From Levilactobacillus tongjiangensis (lineage in GTDB: Bacteria; Bacillota; Bacilli; Lactobacillales; Lactobacillaceae): a DNA stretch of 64,000 nucleotides. The stretch spans positions 62,001 to 126,000 of the forward strand of contig NZ_RHNY01000008.1 in the NCBI RefSeq assembly GCF_003946345.1. Reading direction: 5' to 3'. The notes under the pieces were generated by a model. That model was not told the DNA's origin and ran no database searches. It was given only the letters and a program-made list of their open reading frames with translations. The translations under genes and the position numbers were made by a program. Within the stretch, counting starts at the first letter, position 1; every line of letters starts with the position of its first letter. This document shows positions 2,048 through 8,615 of the stretch, one piece after another.

Positions 2048-2944
2048 ATGGCTATTGAAAGGGTCGTTGTAGCGGGCGGCGGCACGTTGGGAAGTCAGAT
2101 TGCCTACCAGGCCGCCTATAGTGGGTTTCGGCTCACAATTTGTGAGGTCAACGCAGCTAAGGTAGCCGCTAGCAAGCGGCGCGTGGCCACCTGGGATACC
2201 ATTTATGCCCGGGAATTGGCCGCCACACCCGCCATGTTACACGATACCAATGAGCGCATTCGGTATGCCACGGACTTGGAGACGGCGGTCGAGGACGCCG
2301 ATTTGGTAATTGAAGCGATCCCCGAGGCGGCCGGCGTGAAGCGGGAGTTCTACGCCACCTTGGCGAAAGTAGCCCCCGCCCGGACGATTTTCACGACAAA
2401 CTCAGCGACATTTATCCCCAGTCAATTTGCGGTGATGACGGGCCGCCCTGACCGTTTTCTGGCCTTGCACTTCACCAGTCCAGTTTGGACCGACCACGCG
2501 GCTGAAATCATGGGACAACCCGAAACGGATCCGGCCGTGTATCAGGAGGTTGTCCAGTTTGCCAAGGATATTGGCATGGCACCGATTTTATTGCGGCGTG
2601 AACAACCAGGGTATGTGATTAACACGTTAACGACACCGTTCTTGGAGGCCGCACTGACACTGTGGGCCAACGGTATCGCGGAGCCGGCTACTATCGACCG
2701 AGCTTGGATGATTGCCACCAGCGCACCGAAGGGACCGTTTGCGATTCTCGACCAGATTGGGTTGAAACGCGTTTACAACGGTCTGTTAGCGGCTAGCGCT
2801 CAGCCAGGGAAGGGCGGCTTGGTTGAAGTGGCCCATAAATTAAAAATGGCGTTGTTAGATCAGCATCGACTAGGCTTGGAAAGTAACCACGGCTTTTACC
2901 AGTATCCGCATCCGGCGTATGAGCGGGCTGATTTTTTAATATAA
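2048..2944 (+). CDS. 3-hydroxyacyl-CoA dehydrogenase family NAD-dependent oxidoreductase
   Basis: 298 residues, the usual size of the short 3-hydroxybutyryl-CoA dehydrogenase / L-gulonate dehydrogenase group. The N-terminus carries the NAD-binding glycine motif AGGGTLGSQIA (about residues 9-19). EAIPE (about 90-94) and LHFTSPVW (catalytic-His region, about residue 137) follow, then the helical C-terminal dimerisation domain. The start is ATG with AAGGATGAAGG upstream. There are no fatty-acid or beta-oxidation neighbours, so the substrate is unclear; lactobacilli commonly carry such an orphan gene annotated 3-hydroxybutyryl-CoA dehydrogenase. Downstream lies the degraded surface-gene block. 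Confidence 0.85.
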   Translation: MAIERVVVAGGGTLGSQIAYQAAYSGFRLTICEVNAAKVAASKRRVATWDTIYARELAATPAMLHDTNERIRYATDLETAVEDADLVIEAIPEAAGVKREFYATLAKVAPARTIFTTNSATFIPSQFAVMTGRPDRFLALHFTSPVWTDHAAEIMGQPETDPAVYQEVVQFAKDIGMAPILLRREQPGYVINTLTTPFLEAALTLWANGIAEPATIDRAWMIATSAPKGPFAILDQIGLKRVYNGLLAASAQPGKGGLVEVAHKLKMALLDQHRLGLESNHGFYQYPHPAYERADFLI

Positions 2945-3006
2945 ATTAACGCGTAGTGCTAGTCATGTAATATTTACTGGATAGAATTCTGAATCAAATC
3001 AAATAG

Positions 3007-3365
3007 TCTGCAAAAGGCCCGCAATTTGCGGTAGCTTCTAAAGACCCTAATGGTAGTGATGTTTATACCAAGGCTTATGACGATGAGGCGACGAAAAACG
3101 CTAATGATTATAAGGCCGGCCAAACCGATGGAAATGCTGATGGCGAAGGCGGTAAAGGGTCAAATCCTAAAGCTAATCAGTCCGAGGCTTATAATCAAGG
3201 TTATGATTCTGGGTATGCGACTGGAAAAGCAGACTATGATAAGAACAATAGTGGGAAAACAGATTCCGATGATTCTGGAAATTCTGGTTCTGGAACTAAC
3301 ATTGGATCCAGTACGGGTACCGTCTTGTTGGAATGGCGGAATTGAAACGAAAGAAAGTAGCTTAG
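3007..3365 (+). pseudogene. Remnant of a cell-wall-anchored surface protein (C-terminal end)
   Basis: An open frame without a usable start (3007-3345, stop TAG just upstream at 3004) encodes a polar Asn/Asp/Gly/Tyr-rich stretch with AYNQGYDSGYATGKADY, a composition typical of lactobacillar surface-protein stalks. It ends in Ser/Gly/Thr-rich DSGNSGSGTN. In the frame starting at 3327, VGMAELKRKKVA-stop (ends 3365) looks like the positively charged tail after the membrane segment of a sortase substrate. The LPxTG motif and most of the hydrophobic segment are missing between the two frames. Inference: an LPxTG protein that lost its 5' end and suffered an internal deletion plus frameshift. Confidence 0.6.
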
Positions 3366-3384
3366 TACAACTGTCATCTCAAGA

Positions 3385-3425
3385 GACGTTCACCAATTCA
3401 GGTGAGCGCCTTTTTAATTTTTTTG
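3385..3425 (+). terminator. Rho-independent terminator after the surface-protein remnant
   Basis: GTTCACC-AATTCA-GGTGAGC stem-loop followed by a T-rich run (3410-3424). Confidence 0.75.
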
Positions 3426-3656
3426 AGTTAGTGAAGAGGTGTAGGCCTTATTTATAGGTTAACTGAGTTTAAACGGATTTGAACTATGATTGGTTGCATC
3501 ATTAAGCGAGCAAACTAGCGTTTTGGATTAAGGTTCACCTAAATTACTATTGACTAAAGAAAACATTAAGAATAAATTATAAAAGGAAGCACCACACATT
3601 GCCTCGAGTGGATAGTATATTGTGCTTGAATAGGTGAAAGTGGGAGGAGCGTCGAA

Positions 3657-3904
3657 ATGAATAGACAGTCAAGAAAAGTGACAAGTAAATATGGAAAATT
3701 TATAAATAAAAGGAATTATCAGTATTTGGGGTTATTAGGAATTTCGTTGTTTTCTCTTTCATTGAGCCAGTTAAAGCCGGTTGATGCATATGCGGATTCT
3801 ACAGGTGAACAGAAGGTATCTTCGTTAAAAATAATCAAAATGGAAAATATGTACGAGCTTCTAATGCTCATCAGTATACGATTAAACAGTTATTTAATAG
3901 ATAG
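3657..3904 (+). pseudogene. Small exported protein with YSIRK/KxYKxGKxW-like signal peptide, frameshifted
   Basis: ATG at 3657 with a GGGAGGAG ribosome site 8 bases upstream. The N-terminus is basic (RQSRKVTSKYGKFINKRN), followed by a hydrophobic core (YLGLLGISLFSLSLSQL) and a likely signal peptidase I site near VDAYA-DS. The frame then runs into unrelated codons and stops at 3926. Adding one A to the A5 run at 3829-3833 continues a sensible polar sequence (NNQNGKYVRASNAHQYTIKQ) to a TAG at 3902-3904, only 14 bases before the next gene's ATG. Inference: an exported peptide of about 82 residues, inactivated or switched off by a one-base A-tract change. No function is recognised. Confidence 0.6.
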
Positions 3905-3918
3905 GCGGGCGTGTGAGC

Positions 3919-4855
3919 ATGGATAAACATCGATTATTCAAAAAATTATTGTATCAATTGGGGTAATTTGTCTGTATTTGCTGCCAATCGTAAGTATTTC
4001 GGCGAATTCAAATTCTCAAAAATACGGTTATGCTTTTAAAAACTCGAGTCCGGTGAAGTATAGTCGGCACCTATCGACGCCTTTGGTAACTAAGGTGATG
4101 GATCCACGTACAAAAAATCTATATTTTAAAAAACGTGAGATGACGCACCATGGTGTTAAGTACATTGGCCTTCAGCGTCAATCGGTTGATTGGGCATTTA
4201 CGAAAGGGCATGCACGTAGAAAACCGTCCAGAACATTCTATGTTCGTCGGAGTGCTGTAAAAAAGGTCAAGACGGTGTTGGCCCAAACGTCGATTAAAAA
4301 AACGCCAGTTAACTTAAAATCCAGTCAGTATAATTTTTGGACGTATCCAAGAGGGACGCGGCAGAGCGTTAAGGAACAGTACCGAGGCAGTACTTATCGT
4401 TTTCGTACGCTATATGCGACTGAGAAAATGCATACCCGATTACATGGGACTTTTATAAAAGTACAGACAGCTTCCGGGAAAAAATTGGGTTGGATTTATC
4501 AAGGGGCAGTATTAAGTGGCCGGTATTTAGACCCTGTTGCTTACCTAACGCGTAATACACAGCTCACCAAAAGAGTGTGGGTAAACAAAAAGAAGCCACG
4601 TATCAAAGTTGCTTCACTAAGTCAGGATAATCAGTTGAAAACTTTGATTGTCCAAGCTGAAGATAATTCAGCAACCGCACGCGAACCGAGGTTAAAAAAA
4701 CCAGCAATAAGATGTACAATGATACTTTTTATCGTTACGGTTATGACGGCGTCAGAGATAATCGGGTAATCTTCGTAAGATTTTTCCTGGATGATGCTAC
4801 TCAAGGATCGAGAATTGATGTGAAGATGAACGGGCAACTACATCAAGCATATTAG
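3919..4855 (+). pseudogene. Secreted protein with SH3/GW-like repeats, two A-tract frameshifts
   Basis: ATG at 3919 (MDKHRLFKK) is followed, after a shift in the A6 run at 3940-3945, by a clear signal-peptide core (IIVSIGVICLYLLPIVSISANS). The long middle frame (to about 4700) contains basic, aromatic SH3/GW-like modules typical of lactobacillar wall-binding proteins, e.g. HGVKYIGLQRQSVDWAF and HGTFIKVQTASGKKLGWIY. At the A7 run 4694-4700 the frame shifts again, and the third frame (NDTFYRYGYDGVRDNRVIF to KMNGQLHQAY-stop, 4853-4855) completes the protein. Both shifts would be repaired by one extra A. Total about 311 residues. Family function is unknown; wall association is inferred from the modules. 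Confidence 0.7.
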
Positions 4856-4939
4856 GATTGATGCGAAAATTCCCCAAAAATAATCATATTAAAAACATGA
4901 CTCTGGTTGTTTAAGAATCCCTTTTCTAATGACGAATTG

Positions 4940-5044
4940 TCAAATCAAGTGTAACGATTGCCCGAAGAAAACTTCTGCTGGAGACTTCCAGCCCAGGACC
5001 TTGCGTGGTCGATTATTGTACAAATTATGTTTCACAAATTGTGA
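4940..5044 (-). mobile_element. IS30-family transposase C-terminal remnant
   Basis: Read on the minus strand this fragment gives VKHNLYNNRPRKVLGWKSPA then EVFFGQSLHLI-stop. That is the conserved C-terminus of IS30-family DDE transposases (LNxRPRKxLGWxTPxEVF). Everything upstream of it (N-terminus, catalytic D-D, left end) is missing. At base 5044 the IS sequence abuts the Amidase_6 fragment, so the junction looks like an IS-adjacent deletion that removed the rest of the element and the 5' part of the neighbouring gene. The element's outer terminus should lie between 4856 and 4940, but no inverted repeat can be paired because the partner end is absent. Confidence 0.85.
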
Positions 5045-5046
5045 GA

Positions 5047-5523
5047 CATGGGGGCGCTAAAGTTTATGTTCATAAAGTGCATCATCATAATCGCAGCACT
5101 TCTACTAAGCAGTGGTTTCTACACAAAAAAATGGACTTGTTTGGGCAGAATATTCGACTTCCTGGACGTCGGTTGTAGACTTTTATAAACACTGGACGAA
5201 ATATGGGCATAAACGTCATTATACCCGGATAAGTCGAAAGAAATTCTCTAGAAAACAGAGAGCTACAGTCGTAAGAATGGTTGAAAAAAAAAGCTAAGTT
5301 GGGAGACATTATTCAATTTAGAAGGTACAGAAAAGGACATGGGTATGAATGGTTTCATTCGGGATTTGTCGATGGAACATACAAGAAAAAGAAGCATGGT
5401 CACTATGTGTATCGGGTTTATTATGCGTCGCACACAGGAAATTATAAGCATAGGAATTTAAATACGGGATTAGCATCGAGTGGTTCAAATGGTGTTCGGC
5501 TAATCCATATGAAAATGAGATGA
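5047..5523 (+). pseudogene. Amidase_6-like secreted amidase, 5'-truncated and frameshifted
   Basis: Three frames join into one sensible protein. 5056-5108 gives AKVYVHKVHHHNRSTSTKQW. After one missing A in the A7 run near 5125, 5112-5290 gives NGLVWAEYSTSWTSVVDFYK. After a length change in the A9 run (5284-5292), 5293-5523 gives AKLGDIIQFRRY, GHGYEWFHSGFVDG, YYASHTG and NGVRLIHMKM-stop. The order W-x-SxSWxxVxxFYxxW, GDIIQ, H-S and SHTG matches the C-terminal half of the putative amidase domain PF12671. The N-terminal part with the expected catalytic Cys is missing, cut off by the IS30 junction. Domain match is by eye and moderately sure. Confidence 0.65.
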
Positions 5524-5527
5524 TTTC

Positions 5528-6097
5528 TTGAAAACAAAATATGATCATTTTAAAGAGAAATTAGTTAGTCATTGGAAAAATATTGGAAGAGTGAGGAAAG
5601 TTCTTGAGGTTCTGCTTTTTACCGTCCTTGCTTTTCTTACAGTGCCGAGTAATTCTGTAAGATTGGCGATAGCCTTGTCTGGGCATCCGCATATTGCACT
5701 CCATACTCAGGTCACTAAAGTAGGCTCTGGTGAAACTCGATATTTGCTTGGTAAGTATCATATTGGTCGAGCTTATGAAATTAATAATTCATATTTAAGC
5801 TGGGATGGAAGCTATTATGTTTCTGCATTTCATGTGACTAGAATTATTTTATTTAATGTGGCATATTCAGTACCTGAGCCTGGTTGATAGACACGAAAGT
5901 GTTGAGCGGTTTATTAGTACACATGGAAAATATCTATTTAATGTGGGGAATGTTGAAAAAGGCAGCTTTTAATTACGGGGTCTAAAATTCCAAAATCAAC
6001 CGGTCTGTTTTTTGCTCGCAACTTGAGTGTTTTTCGTCGCTCCGACAATGCAGGATTGAATGAGTTCACTAATTTGTTTTATTCTTCGTTTGTGTGA
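5528..6097 (+). pseudogene. Unknown membrane-anchored or exported protein, frameshifted
   Basis: TTG start at 5528, five bases after the Amidase_6 stop, suggesting they formed one operon. The N-terminus is basic/amphipathic (KTKYDHFKEKLVSHWKN), with a hydrophobic stretch (VLEVLLFTVLAFLTV), then a polar domain with a repeated Y/G pattern (RYLLGKYHIGRAYEI). The frame ends at 5887, but the next frame continues (SLVDRHESVERFISTHGKYL) to 5972. One extra A in the A5 run at 5956-5960 would extend it (GLFFARNLSVFRRSDNAG) to a TGA at 6095-6097, which lies inside the terminator. About 190 residues if restored. No homologous family is recognised. Confidence 0.5.
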
Positions 6098-6139
6098 AGC
6101 TTAGGGGAATCCCTTAGTTTCACACAAACGATTTTTTTT
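6086..6139 (+). terminator. Strong terminator ending the degraded operon
   Basis: The 13-base arms TCGTTTGTGTGAA / TTCACACAAACGA enclose an inner TTAGGG/CCCTTAG stem and are followed by T8. The left arm overlaps the restored stop codon of the preceding broken gene. Confidence 0.9.
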
Positions 6140-6163
6140 AAATTCAGAAAGAAGTGATCTGAT

Positions 6164-6691
6164 ATGCGATTCAAGCAATTATCGCGTGAGGGTGATATGA
6201 AGCTTCACTATAAGCTTTTTAAGGCAGGCAAACAGTTAGTCAATGCCCCTATCGGAAAGTTAGCACTGACAAACGTCGTTTTATTTACGATAGCGTTAGG
6301 CGGGGTCAATGCGTATGCGGATACAGCCGGAAGTATTGATCCGACCACAACATAAACGAGTTCTGCGGCAACTTCAAAAAGTACGTCGGCAAACATTAAC
6401 CAATCTGACGCTACCATTAACACAAGCAACACGTCACAGGCTGCCAGTTCATCAGCAGAACAAGCAATCTCTGCTGCAGTTTCGAGTTCTCAGAGTCAAG
6501 CTGCAAGTTCAATTTCGAGCTCAGCTACTTCTACAACTTCGACTAGTACGACTGAAGCTAAAAGCAGCATTACTCCAGCAAGTTCTTCAGCTCAGGCAGA
6601 GGCTTCGACAGCTGTCCAGGTAGCTAGTTCAGCAGCGAGTCAAAGCACATCGCCTACTAGTTCAATTTCTTCTACAGCGGGGGTCGACTAG
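6164..6691 (+). pseudogene. Serine-rich surface adhesin remnant with KxYKxGKxW signal peptide, nonsense-interrupted
   Basis: The first 63 codons contain the KxYKxGKxW-type signal motif LHYKLFKAGKQLV, a hydrophobic core and a cleavage-like GVNAYADTA. TAA at 6353-6355 interrupts the frame, yet the same frame continues directly for 111 codons of Ser/Thr/Ala-rich sequence (e.g. SSSQSQAASSISSSATSTTS) until TAG at 6689-6691. The stop at 6691 follows a G5 run; with one G fewer the frame would read AGSTSTTS before hitting the IS605 remnant. Signal type plus Ser-rich repeat identifies a serine-rich repeat protein, a family normally exported by the accessory SecA2/SecY2 system and glycosylated. Neither that system nor the binding region is in this window. 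Confidence 0.75.
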
Positions 6692-6715
6692 CACAACCAG
6701 TTAAATTAGGCAGAA

Positions 6716-6739
6716 ATCCCTTGCTTTCAAGCAAGGGAT
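6716..6739. other. Left-end hairpin of the IS605-type remnant
   Basis: Perfect 11-bp arms (ATCCCTTGCTT / AAGCAAGGGAT) with a 2-base loop lie just outside the tnpA stop codon, where IS200/IS605 elements carry the end hairpin recognised by TnpA. Confidence 0.75.
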
Positions 6740-6747
6740 GAATGTCA

Positions 6748-6972
6748 CTATACTTTTCGTTGATTAGAAATGTATCTGTCCACGGTCGTCTTGCTCATGT
6801 CACCCAGGGTACTCATGAAGTAACTAGGCAACCAAAGATGTCCACCCCAGAATTTTTGAGCCTTTATCTCTGAATGTCGTTCAAAGAATAAGCGAGCCGA
6901 ACCGCCCTTGAAGGCTTTGATAACATTAGTTTGTGCATACTTGGGCTTAAAGCTTAGCAGTAAGTGGACGTG
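6748..6972 (-). pseudogene. tnpA: IS200/IS605 TnpA (HUH Y1 transposase), C-terminal fragment
   Basis: 74 codons read on the minus strand: HVHLLLSFKPKYAQTNVIKA, then FKGGSARLFFERH, FWGGHLWLPSYFMSTLGDMS and a stop. It begins at the HVH (HUH metal-binding) motif and keeps the C-terminal part with GGHLW..SYF, but lacks everything N-terminal of HVH. The helix that should carry the catalytic Tyr (consensus YF..T.GD) is present. Non-functional alone because of truncation. Confidence 0.88.
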
Positions 6973-7051
6973 CCCTAGTTGTGAGACGTTTCATGTGCGT
7001 GACCATAATGCAGCTAAAAATATTCTAGCTAAGAGTTTAGCAGCTTGGTAG
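6971..7051 (+). pseudogene. tnpB: TnpB C-terminal tail (IS605 RNA-guided nuclease family)
   Basis: CPSCETFHVRDHNAAKNILA then KSLAAW-stop. It contains the second CxxC of the TnpB zinc finger and the RDxNAAxNI motif holding the last RuvC catalytic Asp. About 26 of roughly 370-430 residues remain, so no nuclease is encoded here. Confidence 0.85.
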
Positions 7052-7205
7052 GAAACGAGTCCGTCTGGCAAGCTGCGGACCTAAAAAGCTTTGGTAATTA
7101 GCGGATAAGTCCAATTCGTAGGCTAGCGCTGTATCTAAGTAAATTGTGGTCACCATGCCAAGGGGTGTGGTGACCACAAGCGCCCGTTTTTAAACGGGCG
7201 TGGTT
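7052..7205 (+). ncRNA. Possible orphan TnpB guide-RNA (omega RNA) segment and right end
   Basis: In intact IS605-type elements the guide RNA covers the 3' end of tnpB and the right end of the element. Here that stretch is retained although tnpB is gone. It carries a perfect 10-bp hairpin (GTGGTCACCA / TGGTGACCAC, 7146-7177) and immediately after it a perfect 9-bp hairpin (CGCCCGTTT / AAACGGGCG, 7181-7200). RNA function is inference; the hairpins are also what TnpA would recognise at the DNA end. Confidence 0.45.
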
Positions 7206-7289
7206 GACAGGAATAAGGCGCATTCGACTGGCTATCGGTAAGGCGGAAGGCCACTAAGTTAACGAATCAACATTGAAATACTCTCTGCT

Positions 7290-7545
7290 CCTGATACAAC
7301 AAGGATTGGATGTTGGGGGGGCAGACATAGTGGGAAGTCGCTGCCTGACCGTTCGCCGAATTTGGACTGGAACGCGGTGGGAACGACGGGACAAACCCAA
7401 GGTCGGTCTTGCCCCTCGATTGAAGCCGCAAAGCACGTCTTCAAGTTGCCATTTTCAAAAAAACCACTTGAAAATCTCACGACTGAGTGAGACGAATTTT
7501 AAGTCTATAACGTTTTACTAGTTTTGGTTTAATAATGGTTTTCTA
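7290..7545 (+). repeat. Dispersed intergenic repeat, copy A (partial/divergent)
   Basis: Shares its two ends with copy C at 27655-28047: the start (CCTGATACAACAAGGATTGG, then a CCGTTCGCC block) and the end (ACGAATTTTAAGTCTATAAC, then GTTTTACTA and a TTTGG...TAAT...GGTT tail). The middle is different from B and C. It lies between the IS605 remnant and the nrd terminator. No gene is seen in 7206-7563. Confidence 0.7.
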
Positions 7546-7563
7546 ACTTTGGTTAAATGAATA

Positions 7564-7612
7564 AAAACGCCGCAAATGGTTGGTAATTTTCCAATCGTTT
7601 GCGGCATTTTAT
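7564..7612 (-). terminator. Terminator of the nrdHEF operon
   Basis: GCCGCAAATGGTTGG / CCAATCGTTTGCGGC form a 15-bp imperfect stem with flanking A and T runs, placed 8 bases after the nrdF stop on the minus strand. It is probably bidirectional. Confidence 0.88.
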
Positions 7613-7619
7613 TTAGCGC

Positions 7620-8615
7620 TTATTTACTTGGATCTTGCGGATCAGCTGGCTCACCGATATTGTAATCATCGTCATTCATGGCTTCAACGTTACCTAAGAG
7701 ATAACCGTTCCCAACTTGGGAGAAGAAGTCGTGGTTGGCCGTCGAGGTGGAAATACCGTTCATGACCACGGGGTCGACGTCTTCAGCGGTGTCGGGGAAC
7801 AAGGGATCTTGGCCCAGGTTCATCAAGGCTTTGTTCGCGTTATAGCGAATGAACGTTAACACCTTTTCTGACCACCCAATTTGGTCGTAGAGGGTGTGGG
7901 TGTATTGTTCCTCATTAGCGTAGAGCTTGTAGAGGAAATCGTACATCCAGTCCTTCATCTGTTGTTGTTCGTTGTCCGTCAGTTCCTTCATGCCAAGCTG
8001 GAACTTGTAACCAATGTAGGTCCCATGGACGGATTCGTCGCGCAAAATCAATTTAATGATTTCAGCGACATTGTTGAGCTTGTTGTGTCCCAGGTAGTAG
8101 AGGGGCGTAAAGAAACCGGAATAGAACAGGAAGGTTTCTAAGAACACACTTGAGATTTTTTTCTTCAACGGATGTTCATCATCGTGATAGAGATCATAGA
8201 TGCGTTTGGTCTTATTTTGGAGAAATTCTTCAGAATCACTCCATTGGAAGATTTCGTCAATTTCATCCGGCGTGTTCAGCGTGGAAAAAATGGTGGAATA
8301 ACTCTTAGCGTGAACGGATTCCATGAATTGGATGTTGTTCAGCACGGCTGTTTCGTGTGGCGTCCGGACGTCCCGTCGCAAGGCGGCCATCCCATCTTGA
8401 GACTGAAGCGTGTCTAGCAGGGTCAAGCCCCCAAAGACGTGACCTACGACCCACTTATGGTCAGTATCTAGCGTACGCCAGTCATCTAAATCGTTGGAAA
8501 CGGGAATCCGGGTATCCAGCCAAAATTGTTCCGTGAGTTTTTCCCAGGTGGCTTTGTCGATTTCATCGGAAACTTGGTTCCAGTTGATTGCGTTATAATT
8601 TTCAGTTCTTGCCAT
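7620..8615 (-). CDS. nrdF: Class Ib ribonucleotide reductase beta subunit NrdF
   Basis: The R2 subunit generates and stores the tyrosyl radical on a dinuclear Mn/Fe centre needed by NrdE to reduce ribonucleoside diphosphates. 331 residues, normal length. Visible metal-ligand motifs are ESVHAKSYS and the later DESVHGTYIGYKFQ helix; NWNQVSDEIDKATWEKLTEQFW near the N-terminus is family-typical. ATG at 8615 is preceded by AAGGAGTGGC. Last gene of the minus-strand nrdH-nrdE-nrdF operon, 45 bases after nrdE. No nrdI is present in this cluster; its flavodoxin would have to be elsewhere. Confidence 0.97.
   Translation of the reverse strand: MARTENYNAINWNQVSDEIDKATWEKLTEQFWLDTRIPVSNDLDDWRTLDTDHKWVVGHVFGGLTLLDTLQSQDGMAALRRDVRTPHETAVLNNIQFMESVHAKSYSTIFSTLNTPDEIDEIFQWSDSEEFLQNKTKRIYDLYHDDEHPLKKKISSVFLETFLFYSGFFTPLYYLGHNKLNNVAEIIKLILRDESVHGTYIGYKFQLGMKELTDNEQQQMKDWMYDFLYKLYANEEQYTHTLYDQIGWSEKVLTFIRYNANKALMNLGQDPLFPDTAEDVDPVVMNGISTSTANHDFFSQVGNGYLLGNVEAMNDDDYNIGEPADPQDPSK

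Follow-up and report, generated by a model that had tools for sequence, protein, structure and literature searches.

Gene content and lesions of the locus

The window analysed here is a stretch of 64,000 nucleotides from Levilactobacillus tongjiangensis (contig C42, NZ_RHNY01000008.1, positions 62001-126000), taken from a genome of 2.72 Mb in 43 contigs that is 99.97% complete and close to that of Levilactobacillus yonginensis. Our subject is a cluster of broken surface-protein genes at 2945-6700, flanked by an intact open reading frame (ORF) at 2048-2944, presumably 3-hydroxyacyl-CoA-dehydrogenase-like, and another at 7620-8615, which we take to be nrdF-like. Large parts of the locus are also present in two members of the genus, L. 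yonginensis JCM 18023 (G031; locus contig of 4319 bases, L021, the same sequence as L072) and G032. Lesions were read from DNA alignments to these two genomes, from tblastn frames and from Pfam and NCBIfam profiles, all comparisons being made between species. A search of 2900-7650 against Rfam gave no gathering-level match. Five broken genes, the 3′ end of a sixth and one small intact gene were counted in the block, which together with the elements downstream is laid out as follows:

3028-3345, plus strand: C-terminal remnant of a wall-type protein, acidic, with AY..GYDSGY-like repeats; 5′ part gone, no intact sorting signal seen by eye
3657-3812, plus strand: start of a wall-protein gene, 52 codons with the signal peptide; tblastn identity 90%, residues 1-52 only
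3813-3904, plus strand: 3′ end of another gene, fused at the junction 3812/3813; contains the A5 at 3827
3919-4855, plus strand: gene of an exported GW/SH3-like protein, broken by two lesions; open homologue of 329 residues in genome G006
4929-5017, minus strand: remnant of an IS30-type transposase gene (its 3′ end), from DNA and protein matches
5018-5523, plus strand: Amidase_6-type gene, a remnant that lost its 5′ end at the IS30 junction and has two frame changes
5528-5887, plus strand: intact small gene of 119 residues, starting at TTG and, by eye, with one likely membrane helix
6164-6690, plus strand: broken gene with a KxYKxGKxW signal peptide (Pfam and NCBIfam KxYKxGKxW models) and a serine-rich part
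6702-7208, strand not assigned: remnant of an IS200/IS605-type element with an internal deletion, from a copy in genome G017 and plasmid annotation
7271-7488, strand not assigned: copy of a repeat, some 220 bp long, that recurs across the genome, from matches in its own genome

The first remnant (3028-3345) is a single open frame preceded by an in-frame stop at 3004-3006. Two alignments contain it, 2945-3735 with G031 (94% identity) and 2945-3813 with G032 (95%), and the remnant is thus common to three species at the same place and predates their split. The wall-protein gene that follows is cut to 52 codons in the window. Its copy in G032 is intact and encodes 860 residues (ORF L023:2272-4854, minus strand), with MucBP and antigen-I/II-like domains in Pfam and, by eye, an LPQTN-like end; beside it lies a transposase pair that we take to be IS3-like. 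The GW gene carries both a frame change at its A6 tract and a loss of 52 nt of the G031 sequence at 4676/4677, where the gap ends at two 7-base words agreeing in 6 bases. Since there are two lesions, tract length alone cannot decide the state of this gene. Its GW match falls under the Pfam cut-off in the window piece and in G006 alike.

The insertion sequence (IS) remnant at 4929-5017, whose family name IS30 is our assumption, gave DNA matches of 83-85% to a repeated sequence in four genomes (G016, G019, G025, and G034) and a protein match to a 332-residue ORF with HTH_38 and rve domains. At this remnant the amidase gene has lost its 5′ end, and the Amidase_6 match accordingly starts at profile position 32. 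Protein searches of plasmids with the two amidase pieces gave no match, while the C-terminal piece matched only its own genome in a search of 201 genomes of the family, with 21 listed and G031, which carries part of the piece, not among them. The KxYKxGKxW gene has an in-frame stop at 6353-6355 and lacks its 3′ end; the copy in G031 has a sense codon at the equivalent position and is cut by another deletion.

Taken together, each of the five broken genes has damage outside A-tracts, be it a lost 5′ or 3′ end, a gene fusion, an IS junction, the missing 52 nt or a nonsense codon. Several separate disabling lesions thus stand beside open homologues in G032 (860 residues) and G006 (329 residues); an open homologue was established for neither the amidase-like gene nor the other two broken genes. 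The original prediction, made from the window's letters alone, that five adjacent genes are all broken holds as to a broken surface-gene cluster, and fails at 5528-5887, which is intact.

A-tracts and the origin of the frame changes

It had also been predicted that the lesions are mostly one-base changes in A-tracts, at six named sites. All six runs exist: A5 at 3827 (originally given as 3829), A6 at 3940, A7 at 4694, A7 at 5125, A9 at 5284, and A5 at 5956. As lesions, two of them were confirmed, one is possible and three are explained otherwise, so "mostly" does not describe them. The A6 at 3940 differs in length by one base from G031, and the frame shifts between 3933 and about 3948. The A9 at 5284 coincides with a frame change, the homologue in G017 following one frame to 5294 and the other from 5281; this change may be real, or may be an error at what is the longest A/T run of the window. 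Near the A7 at 5125 the frame changes between about 5112 and 5148, with the Amidase_6 match in one frame to about 5130 and the G017 homologue in another from 5148. A slip is plausible here, yet the change is not pinned to the tract, which no relative covers at DNA level.

The A5 at 3827 is identical in G031, where the same frame is open to the stop of the gene. Over the first 100 bases aligned from 3813 onward the window shares 98 with G031, whose upstream sequence differs; the frame mismatch arises because the junction 3812/3813 fuses two genes, and not from a slip. At 4694 the A7 shows no insertion or deletion (indel) against G031, only one substitution. Homologues in G006 and G031 follow one frame to 4676 and another from 4670 straight across the run, and the nearby frame change is due to the 52 nt missing at 4676/4677. 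The A5 at 5956 lies downstream of the conserved stop of the small gene 5528-5887. That gene is intact, because its homologues end where it ends: the G031 copy is 98% identical over all 119 residues, and a paralogue in the same genome (G000:C23, L063:4835-5224) has 58% identity and ends alike at the C-terminus. Downstream of it, the stretch 5888-5978 resembles sequence downstream of the copy in G011 with gaps of 3 and 2 bases, and is therefore not coding-like up to 5978. A coding reading of 5888-6100 was also considered and rejected; the paralogues tried had no match there.

Runs of at least five A's number 20 between 2945 and 6700. Sixteen of them could be aligned to G031 or G032, ten being identical, five having substitutions in or beside the tract and one having an indel; for the other four, at 5125, 5284, 5956, and 6376, there was no alignment, and they stand outside this count. 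Length variation between relatives, as contingency loci would display, was thus seen in one of 16 alignable tracts, a figure that excludes 5125 and 5284. Compared with dinucleotide shuffles of 3657-6100, the sequence has an excess of runs of at least five A's (18 vs. 10.8, reached by 0 of 300 shuffles) and of at least six (9 vs. 3.9, reached by 2 of 300). Against synonymous-codon shuffles of nine pieces of one frame each, which amount to 678 codons and cover five of the six named tracts, the tracts were neither longer nor more numerous than expected: 15 vs. 14.3 for at least five A's (459 of 1000), 9 vs. 7.4 for at least six (257 of 1000) and 4 vs. 3.4 for at least seven (485 of 1000). A smaller codon shuffle that omitted the named tracts and the lesion surroundings gave 10 vs. 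9.7 runs of at least five A's, reached by 550 of 1000. Keeping amino acids and codons thus removes the surplus seen against dinucleotide shuffles, which the codons explain.

Frame changes at two or three homopolymers could also come from the assembly or the base calling. As a control we used the window above 7600, with ORFs of at least 100 codons aligned to G032 and G031. No frame-changing indel was found against either genome in 49.9 kb of window ORFs; the indels inside ORFs were multiples of three (3 for G032 and 0 for G031), with 43 and 39, respectively, outside such ORFs. When the ORFs of the relatives were used instead, so that genes broken in the window would show up too, there was none in 49.1 kb (G032) and a single one in 48.5 kb (G031). 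That one falls at a C-run, 31 bases from the earliest start codon that its ORF could use, and the true start may differ. These ORFs contain 119 (G032) and 115 (G031) A/T runs of at least five; across the roughly 49 kb of core ORFs that were aligned, no A/T tract showed a frameshift. The earlier view that a uniform base-calling fault is less likely is borne out, a general assembly fault being unlikely in a core so free of A/T-tract frameshifts. Most of the lesions, moreover, are losses and junctions, beyond what a homopolymer fault makes. We thus consider assembly error very improbable as the source of the frameshifts, although it is possible at the A9 alone.

Divergence between species and interpretation

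The same locus is broken in another way in L. yonginensis: IS-like ends lie within the GW gene and at the equivalent of 3735, and a deletion extends to the equivalent of 7548. In that species the broken surface genes are flanked by IS-like ends (TGCTATAGTCCCCTTAA...) at L021:2608-2678 and 4243-4319. The former, about 70 bp long, forms an imperfect palindrome and is either a solo element or an assembly collapse.

Identity to G031, read per 100 bases, falls from 98% at 3813 to 91% at 3913 and to 82 and 81% at 4012-4211, and is 96-100% at 4212-4611, 99% at 4709-4908 and 99-100% at 5345-5844; long core alignments have about 91-97%. The order of blocks differs as well, since 5345-5900 comes before 3813-4677 in G031 and after it in the window. 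Patchy identity and changed block order, read from these alignments, point to transfer and rearrangement around IS elements.

In the light of these data, the locus is very probably a decaying island of surface-protein genes at an IS-rich, recombining site, undergoing ordinary decay. The chromosomal site would collect insertion sequences and surface genes, and the genes were inactivated by separate events: deletions, a rearrangement junction, the arrival and later loss of an IS, a nonsense mutation and a small number of one-base slips in A-runs. Decay by slippage, one of the two readings first offered, holds up as decay, given the non-tract lesions in five genes, and not as to slippage being the chief cause, which applies to two sites, possibly three. 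A-run slippage is, as judged from the alignments, a minority cause of the lesions. Observed directly were the lesions, the other lesion set of the sister species and the near-constancy of tract lengths from species to species, whereas the present absence of selection and the order of events we infer.

Several observations weigh against decay of this kind. Frame changes do coincide with two A-runs and possibly a third, so slippage contributes; one gene (5528-5887) is still intact; and the count of stable tract lengths leaves out four unalignable tracts, two of them important. In addition, the GW part 3978-4676 has a ratio of nonsynonymous to synonymous substitution rates (dN/dS) of about 0.19 against G031, with mostly synonymous substitutions. 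This value indicates that the inactivation of the GW gene is recent and does not imply long neutrality; its divergence would mostly have been gathered in a functional phase under selection, with a recent loss.

The blocks at 96-100% identity to G031 (4212-4611, 4709-4908, and 5345-5844), next to one at 81-82% (4012-4211), would also fit a silent store of surface-gene fragments, in which near-identical blocks are exchanged between Levilactobacillus species and recombined into working surface genes. The differing block order and the position of blocks beside IS ends agree with such a store; yet ordinary horizontal transfer next to IS elements also gives patchy identity, and no working chimera was seen, which leaves the store with little probability. 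Reversible switching of surface proteins by A-tract slippage, the other reading first offered, has in its favor the frame changes at the A6 at 3940 and the A9 at 5284 and the tract-switched surface structures reported elsewhere, e.g., bifidobacterial pili with a G-tract (in the excerpted text of PMC9187656), but is extremely unlikely: non-tract lesions, named beforehand as one of two findings that together would refute it, are present in all five broken genes, so that none is otherwise intact or could be switched by its tract alone, three of the six named runs mark no lesion, the tracts have mostly just 5-7 A's and show no excess over codon expectation, and 15 of the 16 alignable ones have no indel.

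With regard to the small intact gene, a family of small proteins (82-129 residues among the listed ORFs) with, by eye, a P.NAVRL....GHP-like motif was matched in 14 of 35 genomes of the genus. Its ORFs lie in the window (5528-5887), in L063 (4835-5224 and 5315-5671) and in L062 (611-970, 1293-1658, 2481-2729, and 2905-3267; minus strand), and two members tested had no Pfam or NCBIfam match. Four ORFs of the family flank an Amidase_6 gene in G017; yet Amidase_6 is found in only 2 of the 35 genomes.

The two parts of the IS200/IS605 remnant (6702-7208) are adjacent in the window and about 1.46 kb apart in the G017 copy. The two G017 matches overlap by 7 query bases, which suggests a deletion between short repeats. 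One part is annotated as tnpA of IS200/IS605 in plasmid records. The repeat at 7271-7488 has 40 scored matches in its own genome including itself (76 candidates at first look), the others being 77-90% identical. Sixteen of 20 examined copies overlap no ORF of at least 90 codons, and about 146 bp of the repeat recur in other species of the genus. No Rfam match up to E 1 was obtained in 7200-7560, and neither strand of the 7271-7488 copy showed a clear folding signal against shuffled sequences (z 0.36 and -0.71).

Comparison with known systems

Homopolymer contingency loci are exemplified by the sortase pilus of Bifidobacterium breve with its G-tract (PMC9187656, excerpted text). As far as that excerpt goes, the locus studied here is similar in its surface genes and in the one-base tract changes at two, possibly three sites, and differs in that its genes have other disabling lesions and its tracts are mostly short and nearly all, where alignable, without indel. 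No report of A-tract switching of lactobacillar surface proteins was found in titles and the opening lines of abstracts. Frameshifts guessed from one sequence can mimic an A-tract switch, and a tempting false lead is hereby removed: at three of the six named sites, comparison with two sister species revealed a loss, a rearrangement or a gene that is intact.

In insect endosymbionts, poly-A slippage rescues frameshifted genes. Frame changes at A-runs in decaying genes are common to those genomes and to this locus. In contrast, the gene with the A9 has no 5′ end here, and transcriptional slippage alone would therefore not rescue it.

Lactobacilli have IS-associated pseudogene clusters for cell-surface proteins, in which adhesin and wall genes are broken by IS elements, deletion, nonsense mutation and frameshift and sister species differ from one another. 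The locus resembles these clusters, and no clear difference from them was found. The locus adds to them a small example of a surface-gene site that erodes differently in sister species.

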